47,792 bases of DNA from a virus: the IMG/VR virus record IMGVR_UViG_3300007346_000047, positions 1 to 47,792 of that record, one strand, 5' to 3'. The position numbers were made by a program, and so were the translations under genes. A model generated the notes under the pieces. The model was not told the DNA's origin. It worked only from the letters and a program-made list of their open reading frames with translations, and made no database searches. Within the stretch, counting starts at the first letter, position 1, and each line of letters opens with the position of its first letter. Positions 4,258 through 26,750 of this stretch are shown one piece after another.

Positions 4258-5063
4258 TACGCCAAAACATCTCCGTTCTCAATGTAAATAAGCTCAAAAG
4301 CCGCAGAAATATCAAAACTCACAGAACCGGAGGATGATATTGCTCTTACCTCAATGTCCGACTTTTCGGCTACCTTGACCGGCACGGAAAATGTTTCTTC
4401 AACGTGCATCCCTGTTGTTAAAGACTTAACATCCTTTGACTGGAAAACTTCGCCATACGGCCTCACCGCTAAAATCATTTTACAGACCGCTGGAGTGTTA
4501 GAGGTCGTCCCGTTAGATATGTCATATTGGAGCAAGTACGCCGTGTATCCCGAAGGAACGGTCCAAAGAGCCATTAAGCTCTGATTTGAGCCGGTTACGC
4601 CGTTAATGCTGGCATAAACATTGGCTGGGACGCCGGAGGTAATAGTGCCTGTTCCTGTATAAATCACGCCTGCGTTAGCGCCACCAGAACCAGCAGATCG
4701 CACAATCATCCGATTGACCCGCAGGTATGATTTGGTGGTGTTTACGGCTGTCTGCCCATTCAGGGTGACAGTTTCAGAAATTTCATTGTAGTCGGCGTCC
4801 AGTCCAAAAACAGTCACCGTTCTTGCGCCAGTCCCAGCACTGGTATCGGCAGTCGAGCTACTGGAGACGGTCATCACCGATGCGCTGGGCGGGTAAACAT
4901 AAAGACCGCCTTCTGACCATATCGTTTCTAAGCTGTTTCCAACAGAAGCGTTGTTGCCGAACTTGAACAGCGGCTTGTGGTAAGCAATTTGCCCACGAGA
5001 AACTTGAAGCTCAAACGGTTCGGAAGTTCCAACGCGTGAAATAGAACTAACTTCGCGGGCCAT
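4257..5063 (-). CDS. Beta-rich phage structural protein (268 aa)
   Basis: MAREVSSISRVG is followed by a long Ser/Thr/Gly-rich, strand-like sequence. It includes a central GTGARTVTVFGLDADYNEIS repeat-like element and a C-terminal VEETFSVPVKVAEKSDIEVR. Proteins with this N-terminus and GTGARTVTV motif are common capsid-surface or tail proteins in marine podovirus metagenome contigs. It is followed closely by the 91-aa gene at 5073-5348 upstream of it in transcription order. Virion role is inferred from composition and synteny; exact role unknown. Confidence 0.65.
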   Translation of the reverse strand: MAREVSSISRVGTSEPFELQVSRGQIAYHKPLFKFGNNASVGNSLETIWSEGGLYVYPPSASVMTVSSSSTADTSAGTGARTVTVFGLDADYNEISETVTLNGQTAVNTTKSYLRVNRMIVRSAGSGGANAGVIYTGTGTITSGVPANVYASINGVTGSNQSLMALWTVPSGYTAYLLQYDISNGTTSNTPAVCKMILAVRPYGEVFQSKDVKSLTTGMHVEETFSVPVKVAEKSDIEVRAISSSGSVSFDISAAFELIYIENGDVLA

Positions 5064-5072
5064 GATAACCTC

Positions 5073-5348
5073 TTAGCTGTAGAAAATAGTCATCGCCGTG
5101 ATGTTGGTTGCAGTGCTCACATAAAAATCAGTTGTGAACAAAACACCTTCGTCAGGGATGTTTACAGAGTGGGAATCGGACGCCAAAAAGTCGATGTCCA
5201 AAACAGTTGCGCCGCCGTTACCGTCGGTAAGAGTAAGGCGTCCAGCTCCTGCGGCGGTCAAAACTTGCACCTGACGCAGACGGGAGCGACCAATAGAGGC
5301 CGCCCCTGTTCCGGTCAGACGTTTTGTTTTTACGTCTGAGTTTGCCAT
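5073..5348 (-). CDS. Small beta-rich structural protein (91 aa)
   Basis: Ribosome site AAGGAG precedes the start. The sequence is strand-rich with short turns (LRQVQVLTAAGAGRLTLTDG, VNIPDEGVLFTTDFYVSTA). Size and fold type are like capsid decoration or tail-accessory proteins, but no family is identified with certainty. It lies between two larger structural genes in the late operon. Confidence 0.6.
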   Translation of the reverse strand: MANSDVKTKRLTGTGAASIGRSRLRQVQVLTAAGAGRLTLTDGNGGATVLDIDFLASDSHSVNIPDEGVLFTTDFYVSTATNITAMTIFYS

Positions 5349-11471: not shown

Positions 11472-13933
11472 TGTGGCATACCTCCGCCATCGGGTTGTTG
11501 TTTCAAAATTTCTCGTTCCATTGCCGCATCAATGCGGGCCTGCGTTTGACGCTCTTGCGCTGCAATCCGCTCTTGGAACTGTTGTGCCCGCATTTCGGCG
11601 GTCTGCTGATCTAATTGTAACTTTCCTTGGTCAATTTGCGCATCCACCTGATCGGACTGCGCCCGAAGTTCCAGCTCTTTCTCCTTAAGCTGAACCACAG
11701 GGTCCGGAGCACCAGCCCCGGAAAGCTGACCAGAAAGTTCTTTTACTTGCTGCAAACCTTCTGCAATAAATTGAGCCGTTTGCTGCTCTATCTGTAGCAT
11801 CTCGTCTTCGTTTGCAACCCGACCACCGCGCTGTTGAACTTGCTGCATGTACTGAGACACAGACCTCTCGCTCGCTGCAATCCGCACATGCTCCATAATA
11901 TGTTTCTGTAGGCTCATAGCTATCGGGGGTGCTTGACCAACCAAGGCACTGCTCGCAAAAATTAAATGCGAGGTGATGTGAGCTTGGTGGTTCTGACCCT
12001 CAAAAGCTTTCAATGGCAACATATCTAAAGCGTTGATGTTTTCTTGAGCCGGGTCCAACGGTTCGGGAACTTCCGCCGGAATAGCTTTCATTAAACGATC
12101 TACGTCCGATACGCCTAAAGCCTCATACATGTCACGGTATACTTCGTGCATGTTGTGAATTTCCGGGGCCTGTGACGCCAATTGCATCTTTGTCTGAGCT
12201 AAGACAATTCTTTGAGCCTGACTAAACACATTTGGGTTGCTTACCGGAATGACGTCTACACGATCATCAAAGTCTTGAGCCATAACCGATTGGTCGTCGC
12301 CCGCCACGGCGTAAGGATATTCTTGCGGTAGACTTTCCGACATTACACGAGCCAAAATCTTAAACTCTTGGCGCATAGCATAGTGAAGGCGCTTGTGAAC
12401 GGCGCTCATGACCCTAGAGCCCTGCTCTAGCATCGCCATGGTAGTACCTACCGCAGCTTGATCGTTGCCGTCCCCAACCTTTAAATCGGTTATCGTAGCA
12501 AACCGCTGACCAGCTTGAACCACAAAACCTAAAAGATTGAATAACGTCTGATCCGGACCCTTAAACGGGAGCGGCATCAAACTATCCCGGATCGCGCCCC
12601 CCGGAGCATCCACGTCCCGGAACTCTCCGGGCTGAAGCGGGTCGTCATCGTCCCGGATGCGCAAACCACGCGCTTTAAAGCCCGCAGGGAGGTTGGAAAG
12701 GGTTCCAGCATCAATTAACTGACGAAGCGCCGACGTTGCCGTTCTTGACAAACCACCAATCGTGTGAATTAGGCCCAGTCCGTAAAAGCCGAAGCCCGGA
12801 AGGAACTTATAATGCGTGAAATACTGTATTTTACGCTTTAAAGTGTCATCTTCTTGGTAGTTCCGTCGAACAGACAGCACCTCGCCGTTATCCTGAGACA
12901 ACGTTACGATGTACGGAACTTTAATTCCAGTGGGTTCGCCGTCTTCGTCAAGGTCTTCGTAACCTTCCAAGTCTAAATCGACATGACACTCCAAAAGTGT
13001 GCAGTCGTAATCTACTTGATTAGGCTCAAAACCCTCAATTCTATCAATTTCTTGACCCACGCCTGAAGTGTTTTGCTGTGCAGGACTTACTTCAACGTCA
13101 CGATAGAAACCCGCAACTTGGTTTTTACGCAAATCGTTCAAAGACATTCGAACAACCTGCGTAATGTTAGGACATGTATCCAAATCAGACGTCTCGTAAG
13201 GAACGACAAGGTCCTCAGACGGGACAAATTTGGAAACCGCGCGACCTAACGTTTCGTCATAATACGTCTTTTTAAATGTTGAACCCGCCAAAGGCAGGTA
13301 GAACAACATTTGATCCATATCAGGCGTATATTCTTCCATCACACTCGTGATGTAATAGTTCATGAAAGTCTTTACGCGCCTAGCTTGCGCAACTTTCTCA
13401 CGAGTTTCGTTACCCATGACCACAGTTCGGACAGGGCCCGAAGAAGGCAACAATTCGTTAAACGCTTGAGCTTGAAATTGCGTCGCAGCTTCCGCCAAAA
13501 GCGGATGAGTGACGCCCGAAGCACCTCTAAACGGTTGCGTACGCTCGTTGTAAGTGAAACCCAGAAGGTCCAAACCATCCGCATAAGCTTCCTCCCATTC
13601 CTGCCTGCTCGCCTTATTAGAATCAAAATCCCCAGAAAGCTCGCTGGAAATACGACCTAGTTCACGCTCCGGGATTTCTTCTGCCAAGTTGGCGTAGAAA
13701 TCATCGGATTCGCCCCGCTCGTCCGACGGATCAAAGTCCACCTCGACGCTGCCGTCTTCTAAAGCCACAACCTCAACGGGGCCTTCGTCTTCGTCCTCTA
13801 ATTCATACGAAGCGTTTTCCAAAGTCCCCGGAAGCTCCAATTCGATTTCGGCCGCTAGGACGTCTGGGTCCAACTCAGAAGGAACACTGGTTTCCATTAA
13901 GCTGCTTTGAAAGCCGTTACGCTCTTCAGCCAT
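11468..13933 (-). CDS. Portal protein, P22-like (821 aa)
   Basis: The portal forms the dodecameric vertex through which DNA is packaged and ejected. The N-terminal 100 residues are very acidic. A core with AEAATQFQAQAFNELLPSSG, YLPLAGSTFKKTYYDETLGR and IHTIGGLSRTATSALRQLI is typical of podovirus portals. The last 120 residues are a Gln/Glu-rich helix (MRAQQFQERIAAQERQTQAR) like the P22 barrel. Start overlaps the stop of the 1251-aa gene (TAATG). Length is large but usual for this marine group. Confidence 0.85.
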   Translation of the reverse strand: MAEERNGFQSSLMETSVPSELDPDVLAAEIELELPGTLENASYELEDEDEGPVEVVALEDGSVEVDFDPSDERGESDDFYANLAEEIPERELGRISSELSGDFDSNKASRQEWEEAYADGLDLLGFTYNERTQPFRGASGVTHPLLAEAATQFQAQAFNELLPSSGPVRTVVMGNETREKVAQARRVKTFMNYYITSVMEEYTPDMDQMLFYLPLAGSTFKKTYYDETLGRAVSKFVPSEDLVVPYETSDLDTCPNITQVVRMSLNDLRKNQVAGFYRDVEVSPAQQNTSGVGQEIDRIEGFEPNQVDYDCTLLECHVDLDLEGYEDLDEDGEPTGIKVPYIVTLSQDNGEVLSVRRNYQEDDTLKRKIQYFTHYKFLPGFGFYGLGLIHTIGGLSRTATSALRQLIDAGTLSNLPAGFKARGLRIRDDDDPLQPGEFRDVDAPGGAIRDSLMPLPFKGPDQTLFNLLGFVVQAGQRFATITDLKVGDGNDQAAVGTTMAMLEQGSRVMSAVHKRLHYAMRQEFKILARVMSESLPQEYPYAVAGDDQSVMAQDFDDRVDVIPVSNPNVFSQAQRIVLAQTKMQLASQAPEIHNMHEVYRDMYEALGVSDVDRLMKAIPAEVPEPLDPAQENINALDMLPLKAFEGQNHQAHITSHLIFASSALVGQAPPIAMSLQKHIMEHVRIAASERSVSQYMQQVQQRGGRVANEDEMLQIEQQTAQFIAEGLQQVKELSGQLSGAGAPDPVVQLKEKELELRAQSDQVDAQIDQGKLQLDQQTAEMRAQQFQERIAAQERQTQARIDAAMEREILKQQPDGGGMPQ

Positions 13934-17701: not shown

Positions 17702-19165
17702 TTAATAGTACGCACGCACCTTAACAGATGTTGCGTCATCTTCCCAGTCGTCCACCGGCAACTGAATAAAGTTACCCTGACGATACCGCATTAAAGCCTG
17801 CGTCATACTATCAACCAAATCATCATACTCCCCATTGGGAAATGCCGCTACCTCCTCAATCATCTCATCCGCCCAAGTCTCGTCCGGAACCCAAACCATT
17901 CCCGCCTCAAACAACGGACTCACACTGTGTACTCGCGAAACCTTGTCATTACCCCTACTAGGCGTGAAATTTACTACCGGAATGCCCATGTTCCGCAACT
18001 CCTGCGTCAACGGCAAACCACTCGCCTTAGCCTCAATGATAACCGTGTCCGGCTCCCAAAACCTATACAAATCTAAAGCCTCTTTTTTTAAATCCGGAAA
18101 ATCCCAACGGCCCTTCTTACTGTCTAACAATATTAAATTGGGACCACTCCCGCCCTCATTCGGGTAAAATACACCCCACGTCGTTATAGCACTGTAATCC
18201 GAAGTCTCTCGCTTACTGAAAGCCGTGTCGTAACTCTGTATGACATACTCTAACTGCGGAACACGATCCTTATCCCAACGCTTCCACCACTCCCGCGGAA
18301 TGATCGCATTCTCCTCACCCGTCGGATTCTGCTGATACTGAGCATTCCACTTGCTCGGAGGTATTGATGCGCGGACCGCGGTTAAATCTTCTAAACTCCA
18401 ATACTCCGGCCAACACGGAGAACCATCCTCAAATATCGCCGGTAACTCAACAATCTCCCACTGGTCCGCTAAAGGGTCCTTCGCCATCGCACGAACTAAT
18501 TGACCCGTCATGTCCTTCTCTGACCAACGCGTCTGAACCAAAACTATACTGCCACCCGGCTGTAAACGCTGACGAGGTCCACCAGTATACCACTCCCAAG
18601 CATCCTCAAAACCAGCATTCGACATAGCCGTCTGCTCTGAATGCGGATCGTCAATAATTACTAAATCACCACCGCGTCCAGCCAAGTTCGAACCCACACC
18701 AACCGCATAATACATCCCGCCAGATGACGTGTCCCAACGACCAGACGCCTTGCTGTCCGACGCTAACTTAACCTTCGGAAAAATCTCCTTGTACTCATCA
18801 CTCTCAATCAAATTCTTCGTCTTACGTCCAAAATTTACAGCCAACTCCGTCGTGTGCGTCGCCTGAATGATCTTCATTCGCGGACTGAGGCCCATCATCC
18901 ACGCCGGAAACAAAAATGACGCAAACTCACTCTTCGTGTGCCGCGGAGCCATGTTAATAATTAAACGCTTTAAATCACCGCTCGCTACTCGCTCCAACTT
19001 CTCCGCTATAATCTTATGATGACGGCCAGCAATGAACTCAGGCCAAACCGTCTTCACAAAACTTAAAAAATTATCTCGACAAGCTTCATTCTGCTCAAGC
19101 TGCGCGAGCCTTAGACGAAGCTTCAATTCTTTCTCATCTAAGGCCGCGGACCGCGGTGCTTTCAT
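17702..19165 (-). CDS. terL: Terminase large subunit (487 aa)
   Basis: The motor-nuclease cuts and pumps DNA into the prohead. ATPase motifs: a Walker A-like INMAPRHTKSEF, Walker B LVIIDDPHS and the coupling motif VQTRW. RNase H-like nuclease residues: QSYDTAFS (Asp), VIIEAKASG (Glu) and the C-terminal DDLVDSMTQAL (Asp). Start chosen at the ATG at 19165 after a GGGGG site; a TTG four codons upstream is possible. The small subunit is not adjacent but 4 kb away, and a repeat complex fills the upstream 700 bp. Confidence 0.9.
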   Translation of the reverse strand: MKAPRSAALDEKELKLRLRLAQLEQNEACRDNFLSFVKTVWPEFIAGRHHKIIAEKLERVASGDLKRLIINMAPRHTKSEFASFLFPAWMMGLSPRMKIIQATHTTELAVNFGRKTKNLIESDEYKEIFPKVKLASDSKASGRWDTSSGGMYYAVGVGSNLAGRGGDLVIIDDPHSEQTAMSNAGFEDAWEWYTGGPRQRLQPGGSIVLVQTRWSEKDMTGQLVRAMAKDPLADQWEIVELPAIFEDGSPCWPEYWSLEDLTAVRASIPPSKWNAQYQQNPTGEENAIIPREWWKRWDKDRVPQLEYVIQSYDTAFSKRETSDYSAITTWGVFYPNEGGSGPNLILLDSKKGRWDFPDLKKEALDLYRFWEPDTVIIEAKASGLPLTQELRNMGIPVVNFTPSRGNDKVSRVHSVSPLFEAGMVWVPDETWADEMIEEVAAFPNGEYDDLVDSMTQALMRYRQGNFIQLPVDDWEDDATSVKVRAYY

Positions 19166-19250
19166 GGGGGCCCCCAAAGTTATTTATATGCGATTAGTAC
19201 CTTATAATAGTACACCATATCATTTTTTATGGGAATATTTGTGAGAAACA
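19166..19250 (-). promoter_or_regulatory. AT-rich terL leader with TAATCGCATA motif
   Basis: The 85 bp before terL are AT-rich in an otherwise very GC-rich stretch. On the minus strand they contain TATTATAAGGTAC and then TAATCGCATATAA, sharing the TAATCGC core found at other promoter-like sites (22948, 23952, 28214). No good -35 box is seen at 17 bp. A palindromic GGGGGCCCCC lies in the ribosome-site region. Confidence 0.35.
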
Positions 19251-19353
19251 TGGCCCTAGCACCCGCCGGTCGGCCCCGGGGGCCGCGCGCCGGGGGCGGG
19301 CGGATCGGGCCGGGTGGTGATGGCGGAATGACCCGATATCCAGGGGCCCCGGG

Positions 19354-19720
19354 GCGACATCGGGCCGGGGGATGTCGGGCCGGGGATGTCGGGCCGGGGG
19401 ATGTCGGGCCGGGGCGACATCGGGCCGCCGGACATCGGGCCGGTGACATCGGGCCGCCGGACATCGGGCCGGTGACATCGGGCCGCCGGACATCGGGCCG
19501 GTGACATCGGGCCGCCGGATGTCGGGCCGGTGACATCGGGCCGCCGGATGTCGGGCCAGGCGACATCTGGCCGGGAGATGTCGGGCCGCCGGATGTCGGG
19601 CCGCCGGATGTCGGGCCGGGCGACATCTGGCCGGGAGATGTCGGGCCGCCGGATGTCGGGCCGGGGCGACATCTGCAGGGCAGATCGGGCCGCCGGATGT
19701 CGGGCCGGGGAACATCGGCA
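19354..19720. repeat. GC-rich array of ~25 units of about 15 bp upstream of terL
   Basis: Units of the form GACATC or GATGTC followed by GGGCCG recur 25 times, spaced mostly 15 bp, with alternating 14/15 bp (29-bp period) in the middle. The hexamer flips between its two reverse-complementary forms while GGGCC keeps its orientation. All frames are open on both strands only because of composition, and the 14-bp steps break any reading frame, so I treat it as non-coding. Confidence 0.85.
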
Positions 19721-22953: not shown

Positions 22954-23329
22954 TGGGAGCAATCAATCCTAAAATCATATCCCAATCAATTTCTTCTGAT
23001 CCCAGGTACAACGGCTCAACCGCCATGCCCTCTAATTTTAGGTCGGAGGCTTTCGATCCCGGATACAAACGCACCTCTTGCGGTTTGGTTTTCGTCGCGA
23101 CCTTCAGCACCAAAACCCAAACGCTGGCCTTTAACTTCGCATGTCGGTGGAGCCACGCGACCTGATGGGGCCGTAAATCGACTGCGCGGCCCGCTGTGGC
23201 CTTTAGTTCGACGAAATGGAACTTACCCTGCTCGTCGCATAGCATGACGTCTGGGACGCCCGGCAGCGCCCAAGACTCAAGACGGGTCGCCGTCAAGTTC
23301 CGGTTCGTCGTCGCCATCCCCGCTTTCAT
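22949..23329 (-). CDS. VRR-NUC-like PD-(D/E)XK nuclease (126 aa)
   Basis: The core LPGVPDVMLCDEQGKFHFVE followed by LK gives the PD...ExK catalytic pattern. DLRPHQVAWLHRHAKL after it fits VRR-NUC/Holliday-resolvase-like nucleases. Such small phage nucleases trim branched DNA before packaging or act in recombination. The frame is open to 23416; the ATG at 23329 (MKAGMATTNRN) follows GGAGG closely and overlaps the small-terminase gene by 53 bp. The ATG at 23317 is an alternative. Its position after terS suggests a role in preparing DNA for packaging. Confidence 0.75.
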   Translation of the reverse strand: MKAGMATTNRNLTATRLESWALPGVPDVMLCDEQGKFHFVELKATAGRAVDLRPHQVAWLHRHAKLKASVWVLVLKVATKTKPQEVRLYPGSKASDLKLEGMAVEPLYLGSEEIDWDMILGLIAPI

Positions 23330-23927
23330 CGTCCTCCAGAACCCGCTTTCCCTGTTCGCTGCCGTCGTCGGTATCGCTCGTTCTTTCGGGAGTAATGTCG
23401 ATAGTGATTTCGCCATTAGACTGTTTTAGCTCCTCTAAGGCCTTCATGACCTCGTCCTTCGACATACTGTCGATGCTGCCATGCCGGATTTCGGATTTGG
23501 AAACATAAATATCTCCCTGCGCCTGCCCTCGTCGATACTCGGCCTGGACGGCCGCAGAGTATGCCCCGTTCTGCAAAGCCACGTCCCGGATTTTTTGCAG
23601 GTCGCGCAGATGGCGCTGGTACGTCACGCCATACTTCTCGTCCAGCTCTTGGCGATAGGCTTGGATCGCTGCGCAGACGTGTGGGCTATGATCCGGGTTT
23701 GTCAGCTCATATGCACGGGTGTGTGCAGAGCCTGCCGTATATCCTGCGTTGATGGCGGCCTCGCGCAGTGTGATCTGGCCATCCTTTGCGACCAGCTCTT
23801 TTACAAACAATTCCTGCCTTCGGGTCAGCGGAGTGTTTACCGACACGCCCGGACGCCCAACCTCGCCCTGCCCAATCTTTTGCTTGTTCTTACCGCGCCA
23901 CGTGATTTTGTCTGACCGTGCAGTCAT
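23277..23927 (-). CDS. terS: Terminase small subunit (216 aa)
   Basis: The N-terminal HTH pattern of Terminase_2 proteins is clear: LTRRQELFVKELVAKDGQIT, LREAAINAGYTAGSAHTRAY. It is followed by a helical oligomerisation region (YQRHLRDLQKIRDVALQNGA, YSAAVQAEYRRGQAQG) and a very acidic C-terminus. TerS recognises the packaging site and recruits the large subunit. Start chosen at the ATG at 23927 (MTARSDKITWRG) after AAGGGG. It is separated from terL by about 4.1 kb of accessory genes and repeats, which is unusual. Confidence 0.75.
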   Translation of the reverse strand: MTARSDKITWRGKNKQKIGQGEVGRPGVSVNTPLTRRQELFVKELVAKDGQITLREAAINAGYTAGSAHTRAYELTNPDHSPHVCAAIQAYRQELDEKYGVTYQRHLRDLQKIRDVALQNGAYSAAVQAEYRRGQAQGDIYVSKSEIRHGSIDSMSKDEVMKALEELKQSNGEITIDITPERTSDTDDGSEQGKRVLEDDESGDGDDEPELDGDPS

Positions 23928-24334: not shown

Positions 24335-25069
24335 TCAGAGCTGCGCCTGCAACAAATCTGCTCCAGTACCCGTAACGGCCTCCCGCTTCAATACTTCGGG
24401 GTGGCTATCAACACTATCCAGCATCCACAAATAAGCGGCGGCATGGTCGTTGTCGCCGTGCGTTTCCTCTATGGCAGCGCGGAACTCGGCGACGGTCTTG
24501 TCTTGGAAACAGCCGGTCCAAAAACGTAATCCGACGCCACACTTATGAACGATGGTGGTGTGCCGTCCCTCAGAACCAATGGGGCCGATGGACATAAACC
24601 AGTCGCCCTTTTCGATATTCGCGCGCGGGCCGATATTCGCGCCGGGGCCGATATCCGCGCCGAGGCCGATATCCGCGCCGAGGCCGATATTTGCGTTTTC
24701 GCCGATATACGCGCCGGGGCCGATCTTCGCGTCTTCGCCGATATACGCGTAAGGGCCGATATCCGCGTCGGAGCCGATCTTCGCGCCGGGGCCGATATTC
24801 GCGCGCGGGCCGATCTTCGCGCCGGGGCCGATCTTCGCCTCGGAGCCGATATTTGCGCGCGGGCCGACCTTCGCGTCAGAGCCGATCTTCGCGCGGGGGC
24901 TGATATACGCGTCGGGGCCAATCTCTATTGATGCGCTTAGTGTTAATCCCTCCGCAATCCGTGCCGTCACCGCGACAATAGCGCCTTCGGAACCATCCGG
25001 GTTGATATGCCTGCGGGCCTCGGCTTCAAGCCAACCGAAGAACTTGTGTGTGAAGATTTCGTTGCTCAT
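24335..25069 (-). CDS. Left-handed beta-helix (hexapeptide repeat) protein (244 aa)
   Basis: Residues 50-155 contain about 17 consecutive hexapeptides of the type I-G-x-x-A-x (IGPGAK, IGPRAN, IGSDAD and so on), the hallmark of LpxA-type left-handed beta-helices. The N-terminus (FFGWLEAEARRHINPDGSEG) and the C-terminal domain (FMSIGPIGSEGRHTTIVHKC, AEFRAAIEETHGDNDHAAAY) match domains known from other phage proteins of this kind. No acetyltransferase catalytic loop is obvious, so an adhesive, scaffold or DNA-mimic role is possible. Preceded by a coupled 20-aa leader. Confidence 0.75.
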   Translation of the reverse strand: MSNEIFTHKFFGWLEAEARRHINPDGSEGAIVAVTARIAEGLTLSASIEIGPDAYISPRAKIGSDAKVGPRANIGSEAKIGPGAKIGPRANIGPGAKIGSDADIGPYAYIGEDAKIGPGAYIGENANIGLGADIGLGADIGPGANIGPRANIEKGDWFMSIGPIGSEGRHTTIVHKCGVGLRFWTGCFQDKTVAEFRAAIEETHGDNDHAAAYLWMLDSVDSHPEVLKREAVTGTGADLLQAQL

Positions 25070-25128: not shown

Positions 25129-25192
25129 GCTGCGCCCTCCTTTCGTGAGCGACAAGGGACTTCTTTGCGGAAAACGCAAACAAGTCACGTTT

Positions 25193-25285
25193 GTCACCGT
25201 CGGAAAGTCTCCCACCGGTTTGTCACCGTCGGAAAGTCTCCCACCGGCATGTCACCGTCGGAAAGTCTCCCACCGGCATGTCACC
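25193..25285. repeat. 29-bp direct repeats, three copies plus a partial one
   Basis: GTCACCGTCGGAAAGTCTCC begins each unit at 25193, 25222 and 25251, and a truncated copy (GTCACC) starts at 25280. Units differ only at the junction (GGTTT or GGCAT). The array begins at the stop codon of the DnaA-like gene. Tandem units without spacers exclude CRISPR; iterons or an operator are plausible. Confidence 0.9.
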
Positions 25286-25832
25286 CGTAATATTGGTCTC
25301 TTTTCCGGGCGATCTCTTTAGCTTTTTTACTGTCCCCCTCCCAAGGCTTACGTGTAAGCTCCTCCACGTTTGGACGTAAGCTTTTTGGTTTTTTCGCACC
25401 GACCAGTTGTCTGGGTTTTACCAAGAGATCAATCCCGTCTTTTGCGCTGTCTGCCATTTCTTTGACGCCATCCGCAAATTTGAGTTCACGTTGCGACAAA
25501 AGTTCTTTTGACCGGTTGTATGTCGAGTGGGCGTCGGTCTTTAATTTTTCGTCTCGTTTCATTTTCTTCCAGGCAAATCGGGCGGTGGTGTGATCGTAGA
25601 GACCGGCGAAGACGCAACAGGTCTCGAACGTACAACCGGACAACCGCGTTGCGCACATCAAAACCTGCCGAGCGTGCACCAATCTTTTTTGTTTAGACCT
25701 GCACATAAAATCGTCTGATCCGGTCACTTCCTCGGTGGCTTGGATCAAGCTTTTGTGCAGCGGTGTTCCGGTCGGAATGGATCGCATCCTGATCAAGCGT
25801 TCGTCATTTTTTTTGTCATTTTTGAGCGTCAT
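25281..25832 (-). CDS. DnaA domain IV-like DNA-binding protein (183 aa)
   Basis: Residues 27-95 follow the DnaA C-terminal pattern: RSKQKRLVHARQVLMCATRL, SGCTFETCCVFAGLYDHTTA, RFAWKKMKRD. This includes the DHTT signature loop that contacts the DnaA box. No AAA+ domain is present, so it cannot load helicase as DnaA does. The C-terminal 80 residues are Lys/Glu-rich. It overlaps thyX by 4 bp and ends on a 29-bp repeat array, so it may bind that array as a repressor or origin-binding factor (inferred). Confidence 0.65.
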   Translation of the reverse strand: MTLKNDKKNDERLIRMRSIPTGTPLHKSLIQATEEVTGSDDFMCRSKQKRLVHARQVLMCATRLSGCTFETCCVFAGLYDHTTARFAWKKMKRDEKLKTDAHSTYNRSKELLSQRELKFADGVKEMADSAKDGIDLLVKPRQLVGAKKPKSLRPNVEELTRKPWEGDSKKAKEIARKRDQYYG

Positions 25833-26479
25833 TGCACGAAATCCATAATCAAGGGAAAGACCGGAGTCAGGGCCTTGGCCGCGGCCCGCGCAACCTCCCG
25901 GTGTTCCTTCTGCGTCTCAGGCCCGGACCGCAGCTCACAGTAGTGTATCCACGAACGGATGGACCCGGTCATGTATAATCGTGTTTGGGTTAAGCCCTCG
26001 GGCAGCACGGCCCGTGCGACCTCTTTTGCCAGCCCGCGCTTGAGCGCTTCATCGTATACATCAAAAGTAGAAGCGATGAGGCTGTCTTGCACGTCACGCC
26101 ACCAATGGATAAGGCCTTCGTCGTCGGTCTCCAGACTATTTTGTCTGTTTTTAAGGTCTTGGAGCCGCGCTTCCTGCCGGTCGGTGTTTGTCTCGGTGGC
26201 CGAGTACCTTTGGCTAAACTCTTGGTATTTAAAGCTTCCGTGCCGAAGAATTTGTCTGGAAACTGCTCGGCTTGTTTCGATACAAAGGCAGGCGTGAGCC
26301 ATCTCGAAGGGGCTCCAGTGCTTGTTGCGGATCAGGTAGTTTATCAATCCGGGGTTGTTGAGGCCGCTGATTTGAGAGGTCGGATTACTGACACGCGCAA
26401 AATAAGCTATGTCATCGAGCAGGGTGTTACCGGCGCGATGATTTTGGCGTTGGCTGTAGCTTTCAAGTGTGACTTTCAT
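25829..26479 (-). CDS. thyX: Flavin-dependent thymidylate synthase (216 aa)
   Basis: ThyX makes dTMP from dUMP with FADH2 and methylene-tetrahydrofolate. VSRQILRHGSFKYQEFSQRY holds the signature RHxX7S (R79, H80, S89), with Gly in place of the usual third Arg. KHWSPFEMAHACLCIE and PEGLTQTRLYMTGSIRSWIH are also typical. Length is close to family average. It overlaps the HTH gene upstream by 17 bp and the DnaA-like gene downstream by 4 bp. Supplies thymidylate for phage DNA synthesis. Confidence 0.9.
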   Translation of the reverse strand: MKVTLESYSQRQNHRAGNTLLDDIAYFARVSNPTSQISGLNNPGLINYLIRNKHWSPFEMAHACLCIETSRAVSRQILRHGSFKYQEFSQRYSATETNTDRQEARLQDLKNRQNSLETDDEGLIHWWRDVQDSLIASTFDVYDEALKRGLAKEVARAVLPEGLTQTRLYMTGSIRSWIHYCELRSGPETQKEHREVARAAAKALTPVFPLIMDFVQ

Positions 26480-26750
26480 TGTTTTCCTCCAAGTTTTGTT
26501 GGCGCAGGGTTCGTATCAACAGGATTTGAGCGATGCTTTTGGCGGTTAGCGGTTGTTGGTAAGACGCCCCTTTTTTTTCCAATTCCGACAGCATGTCGTC
26601 CGGAAGCCGCAGGTTCAGTGCTTTGCCCCCGCTTTTCGTTCGATGCAGGAGGGTGCGGACTACCGCTGGGGTGGTTTGCAGCATCGTGGCGATGTCTTCG
26701 GCCGCGAACCCTTCCTGAGCCATATCTCCCGCTTTTTTTGTAGCGCTCAT
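26463..26750 (-). CDS. Small HTH / RHH-like regulator (95 aa)
   Basis: The N-terminal half (EGFAAEDIATMLQTTPAVVR) looks like a helix-turn-helix of the sigma/HTH-23 type. The second half (ALNLRLPDDMLSELEKKGAS, then a helix) looks like a ribbon-helix-helix strand and helices. A DNA-binding regulator is likely but not assigned. Start overlaps the SleB-like gene stop (ATGA). Operon partners are thyX and SleB-like hydrolase. Confidence 0.6.
   Translation of the reverse strand: MSATKKAGDMAQEGFAAEDIATMLQTTPAVVRTLLHRTKSGGKALNLRLPDDMLSELEKKGASYQQPLTAKSIAQILLIRTLRQQNLEENNESHT

Follow-up and report, generated by a model that had tools for sequence, protein, structure and literature searches.

The window analysed here, a 47,792-nucleotide (47.8-kb) IMG/VR phage contig (IMGVR_UViG_3300007346_000047), carries nearly all of its recognisable phage genes on the minus strand. 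A DNA-metabolism operon that includes polA, helicase and primase genes ends with thyX and a gene for a 183-aa protein resembling the C-terminal DNA-binding domain (domain IV) of DnaA (dnaA-C), the start of which overlaps the thyX stop at ATGA. As the earlier note had described, the gene is followed by tandem repeats that overlap its own stop codon. The coordinates of these features are collected in Table 1. Just upstream of thyX, a 95-aa protein (26463-26750) was observed whose HTH resembles sigma region 4 (E = 0.005) and whose C-terminus looks ribbon-helix-helix; a similar ORF is present in the related contig L057 (7069-7338), likewise before thyX.

Table 1. Features of the dnaA-C locus, in coordinates of the window
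Feature	Position	Strand	Remarks
terS (terminase small subunit)	23277-23924	minus	First conserved late/packaging gene downstream
Left-handed beta-helix (hexapeptide) accessory gene	24335-25069	minus	Between array and terS
Hairpin	25158-25186	minus	Directly after array; MFE -13.3 kcal/mol, z -5.2, no T run
Tandem array	25192-25285	minus	29-bp unit, 3.2 copies; overlaps dnaA-C stop codon
27-bp core, unit 1 (in + strand order)	25192-25218	minus	
27-bp core, unit 2	25221-25247	minus	
27-bp core, unit 3	25250-25276	minus	
Solo DnaA domain IV-like protein gene (dnaA-C)	25281-25832	minus	183 aa; ATG start, TGA stop at 25281-25283
Codons for D80-H81-T82-T83	25584-25595	minus	From hhalign register and A3 alignment
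thyX	25829-26479	minus	Upstream, overlapping neighbour of dnaA-C

The best Pfam match of the window protein was Bac_DnaA_C (PF08299; E = 0.0059), at 17 bits below the gathering score of 31.5 bits, and its sole NCBIfam match was TIGR00362 DnaA (E = 0.027). Every homologue scanned, from the seven sequences of alignment A2 to more divergent ones, also gave Bac_DnaA_C as its first Pfam match (E = 0.006 to 6e-5); the relatives scored 20-23 bits, and the L057 protein, with 34 bits, was above the cut-off. Within the contig, the window protein was the one PF08299 match (E = 8.8e-5 per genome). Neither Pfam nor NCBIfam revealed an AAA+ domain in the 183 residues, in agreement with the earlier reading. 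PHROGs held no family for the window protein or its homologues, and no homologue was found in named phages.

In hhalign, a ten-sequence alignment (A3) scored 28.1 against E. coli domain IV (sequence identical to 1J1V), compared with a maximum of 16.9 for 150 shuffles and, for 141 pieces of other window proteins, one score of 26.0 and all others at or below 18. The register spans residues 40-104 and places E. coli DnaA D433-H434-T435-T436, at the start of the recognition helix, on D80-H81-T82-T83, which is the DHTT signature recognised earlier. DnaA R399 falls on K49, where the second clade has T or P. D80, H81, R55 and Q56 are invariant in A3 and T82 is nearly so (DHT and ARQ motifs present). 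The protein shares with domain IV (PF08299; 1J1V, 3PVP) the helix order and the HARQ/ARPRQ and DHTT motifs, but differs in lacking the other DnaA domains, in its long C-terminal helix and in a conserved RPxVExLxRKPWExD...EIARKR tail.

A single-sequence AlphaFold model was discarded as poor (pLDDT 52), its structure matches being meaningless. The model built from ten sequences was only fair (pLDDT 60), and its secondary structure follows domain IV. When this pLDDT 60 model was compared with the PDB using Foldseek, the best matches were DnaA (1l8q, 3pvp), with 1j1v at rank 6 (TM 0.53-0.54 to 3PVP/1J1V); the fold check suggested earlier therefore returned DnaA among the top matches, but none was significant (E 0.6-2.8), and the model points only weakly to DnaA. 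In the viral structure library (BFVD), many of the best matches were to phage proteins that carry the name 'Chromosomal replication initiator, DnaA C-terminal'; the solo DnaA-C type is thus already known in phages. Those from uncultured Caudovirales (A0A6J5MQZ8, A0A6J5MPW1 and others) have the same size, architecture and predicted fold class; they share 11-22% identity with the window protein in structure alignments and have no described repeat or function. Based on the Pfam match in every homologue, the hhalign score above the controls, the structure matches and the above-threshold homologue at the same locus, the earlier assignment of the window protein to DnaA domain IV is supported, as a divergent solo form.

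The array has a period of 29 bp (96% matches, score 174) and begins within the last codon and stop of dnaA-C (GGG-TGA-C). Three exact 29-bp repeats had been reported; the 27-bp core TGTCACCGTCGGAAAGTCTCCCACCGG does occur exactly three times, but in one full 29-bp unit two bases differ from the others (TT versus CA). A threefold tandem array cannot be a product of chance, and beyond the array the core was not found in the 47.8-kb contig at up to three mismatches. The hairpin that follows the array was seen only in the window and L004, the lineages with the hexapeptide gene. Within the repeat unit, an RNA hairpin was rejected as not above shuffles (z -0.4), and no sigma-70 promoter was found in the array beyond chance. 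A T7/SP6-like promoter reading of GGTGACA-N5-G was also dropped, the upstream part being missing from the second unit. No exact DnaA box (TTWTNCACA) was present in the 47.8-kb window, where about three were expected by a uniform-base estimate (p about 0.05). The nearest match in the repeat, TTTGTCACC, agrees at 7/9 positions, which is at chance level by estimate.

Related contigs of the same phage type (L004-L016) carry dnaA-C at 79-100% identity wherever they cover the locus, while L057 has a different gene. The repeat unit was present in 12/12 contigs of this type, a figure that is partly circular since most were found by searching with the unit. As counted in metagenome assemblies, the number of tandem units was one in L008, L015 and L016, two in L014, three in the window and L006, four in L004, and at least three in L007 and L011; since the contigs of L007, L012 and L057 stop within the array or shortly beyond it and that of L011 begins inside it, their counts are lower bounds. 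In the single-unit form, GGTGACAAAC stands on each side of the unit, 29 bp apart, which is what tandem duplication by slippage would need. The range of one to four units among close relatives suggests that array length varies by slippage between these 10-bp direct repeats. In lineages that lack the hexapeptide gene, an additional unit follows after a further 127 bp, and the core common to both unit copies is CCAGTGGGAGACTTTCCGACGGTGACAAACGT.

The contig L057 matches the window at 94.8% identity in polA and 71% in thyX. In this contig, thyX is followed by a small ORF and then by a different dnaA-C gene, the DNA of which showed no blastn similarity to the window. Over 161 residues, its product and the window protein share 28% identity, and the C-terminal KxKSLRP...WxxD...IAR motif lies within this aligned part. 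At the GGG-TGA stop of this gene the repeat resumes, with 23 bp at 100% identity before the contig ends. Because the unit stands at the stop codon of a gene without blastn similarity to the window's, both dnaA-C and the unit appear to have been retained within the phage type while the allele was exchanged. This persistence of the unit at the stop of a swapped gene is a new observation, made in one contig.

In relatives, about 0.9 kb of non-coding DNA separates dnaA-C from terS. This region is AT-rich in places and holds CTAGGACAC repeats in both orientations; where it is complete, about 215 bp of it contain GTGACAA/TTGTCAC 5-7 times. In the window this motif was found inside the array only. 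The hexapeptide gene, which itself has 18-bp DNA repeats, replaces most of the relatives' region in the window, including the second unit and the CTAGGACAC repeats, and displaces terS to about 1.3 kb away. A different accessory gene was seen in L015 (about 4747-5180), with a sigma-70-like promoter nearby. Between L006 and L015, intergenic identity is 95.6%, compared with 85% in the dnaA-C tail; between the window and L015, it is 82% for the whole of dnaA-C and 94.4% for terS. Judged from these alignments, intergenic conservation is about that of terS and not exceptional.

Clusters of CTAGGACAC with inverted arms precede terS in L006 (510-650) and L015 (4387-4515), with none in the window, and a cluster of CTAGGAAAA precedes terS in HTVC023P (11597-11764); motifs of the CTAGGACAC/CTAGGAAAA type also occur in other viral contigs (L058-L062). 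In the window, a larger, apparently non-coding GC-rich array of 14-15-bp units (GGCCCGATGTC / GGCCCGACATCC) lies at 19349-19718; it is flanked by a rho-independent-like terminator and by terL (17702-19177). The recurrence of GGTGACA every 29 bp in that array was rejected as a second copy of the repeat, as it arises within the different 14-15-bp units.

Contigs of another phage type (L022-L026) keep dnaA-C at 48-52% identity. In L033, a longer version of L022, thyX again lies upstream, and this neighbour is also kept in L057. The repeat unit is absent from L022-L026, where dnaA-C abuts a methyltransferase gene or convergent genes. The unit thus belongs to the backbone of the window's phage type and not to the protein family. 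Loss of the repeats from relatives that retain the gene had been named in the earlier note as grounds for refutation, and this is the situation in L022-L026. The related named phages DSL-LC04, HTVC023P, 023Pt_psg01 and HTVC027P have polA in the order primase-helicase-polA-then-terS and gave no PF08299 match. Neither relatives of the window protein nor the 24-bp unit core were found in genome contigs, so these searches yielded no host link.

The closest tested precedents for the protein are GafA and GafY. GafA, which regulates the gene transfer agent of Rhodobacter, has an N-terminus similar to the DNA-binding domain of DnaA and binds 75-125 bp upstream of the agent's terS (PMC6363796, PMC9638019). 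GafY, its Caulobacter counterpart, activates via sigma-70 with IHF and works with GafZ, and recruitment of RNA polymerase has been proposed (PMC11150451). By analogy, the window protein would share with them a DnaA-DBD-like domain, the character of a phage-derived regulator and a target region upstream of the terminase. It differs in that GafA has a DUF6456/sigma-like half and GafY the partner GafZ, neither of which was found here: the DUF6456 (PF20057)/GafZ partner was absent from the window and nine relatives (partial contigs) and was found in RDJL Phi 1. No homology was detected between the window protein and the RDJL Phi 1 GafA homologue. Since both partner and homology are missing, we say that the protein may work like GafY and do not call it a GafY.

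Such a role suits a gene that closes the operon and precedes terS, as dnaA-C does. We tentatively favour, at somewhat less than an even chance, the reading that the protein is a GafA/GafY-like DNA-binding transcription regulator, encoded where the DNA-metabolism operon meets the packaging genes. The protein would act on a control region of the phage itself, between the operon and the terminase and late genes and, as a transcription factor, help to switch on the packaging and structural genes, as GafA and GafY do. The identity of the domain, the place of the gene in the operon, the conserved unit at the junction and the variable copy number are observed, whereas DNA binding, target site and activation are our inference; the best candidate binding site would be the conserved 29-32-bp unit at the dnaA-C stop codon. 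The array would have grown locally from one unit through slippage at the flanking 10-bp direct repeats, and copy number would not be critical. Against a regulatory role, the relatives at 48-52% identity lack the unit, and their gene runs straight into others; the displacement of terS by the hexapeptide gene in the window and the unexceptional conservation of the intergenic region also count against it.

Replication initiation is a close rival, although we consider it somewhat unlikely. The protein would bind the intergenic region as a phage origin and recruit the phage helicase, primase and PolA, the units and the relatives' CTAGGACAC repeats being origin iterons. The domain is the one with which DnaA binds origins, the operon that dnaA-C closes includes polA, helicase and primase, and the repeats in both orientations and AT-rich stretches of the relatives, together with the CTAGGA cluster just upstream of terS in HTVC023P, would suit an origin. 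The protein nevertheless lacks the AAA+ domain that would melt DNA, the window has no CTAGGACAC repeats, and the four named phages have no DnaA-C match. No GC-skew inflection was seen at the locus in the window or in related complete phages; the cumulative skew proposed as a check was run and, in the window as in three related phages, tracks nothing but gene strand, so that it is uninformative on the origin. The locus does resemble the iteron origins of plasmids and phages in having direct repeats beside a DNA-binding protein gene, and the unit always lies downstream of dnaA-C in this phage type, even with the 28%-identical gene. In contrast to such origins, array length is not kept, shrinking to one unit in three relatives, the unit is absent at 48-52% identity, and there is no initiator domain. 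The feature is real and its domain and repeats were correctly read in the earlier note, while their interpretation as iterons went too far. It is also quite unlikely that a DnaA domain IV without AAA+ and a 29-bp site at its own stop form a minimal exchangeable initiator/switch cassette, in which divergent alleles are swapped and the site stays.

The repeats and the protein might instead be functionally unlinked, the unit being a boundary or packaging (pac/cos) element upstream of terS at which the modules on either side are exchanged by recombination. Packaging sites typically lie ahead of terS, and this was counted in favour of such an element. The fixed unit is bordered on one side by any of three dnaA-C alleles and on the other by non-coding DNA, the hexapeptide gene or a different accessory gene, and it is missing from the phage type that otherwise keeps dnaA-C. 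Nonetheless, each contig of the window's type that covers the position has a DnaA-C protein directly before the unit, including the 28%-identical one, and we regard the absence of a functional link as unlikely. An action on the host, in which the protein would occupy host DnaA boxes and block or redirect host replication or DnaA-controlled genes during infection, is very unlikely. The DHTT recognition residues are kept and the lack of exact boxes in the window is consistent with targets outside the phage, but that zero count is weak, the second clade does not keep the counterpart of R399, and nothing ties the protein to a host.

In the literature searched, no paper was found on the function of solo DnaA-C proteins in free phages. 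The locus offers a specific and testable candidate site, and it shows an unchanged unit next to a replacement gene whose product is 28% identical. Binding of the protein to this unit, if it occurs, would show how phages reuse a reader of replication origins and would connect free phages to the GafA/GafY regulators known from gene transfer agents.
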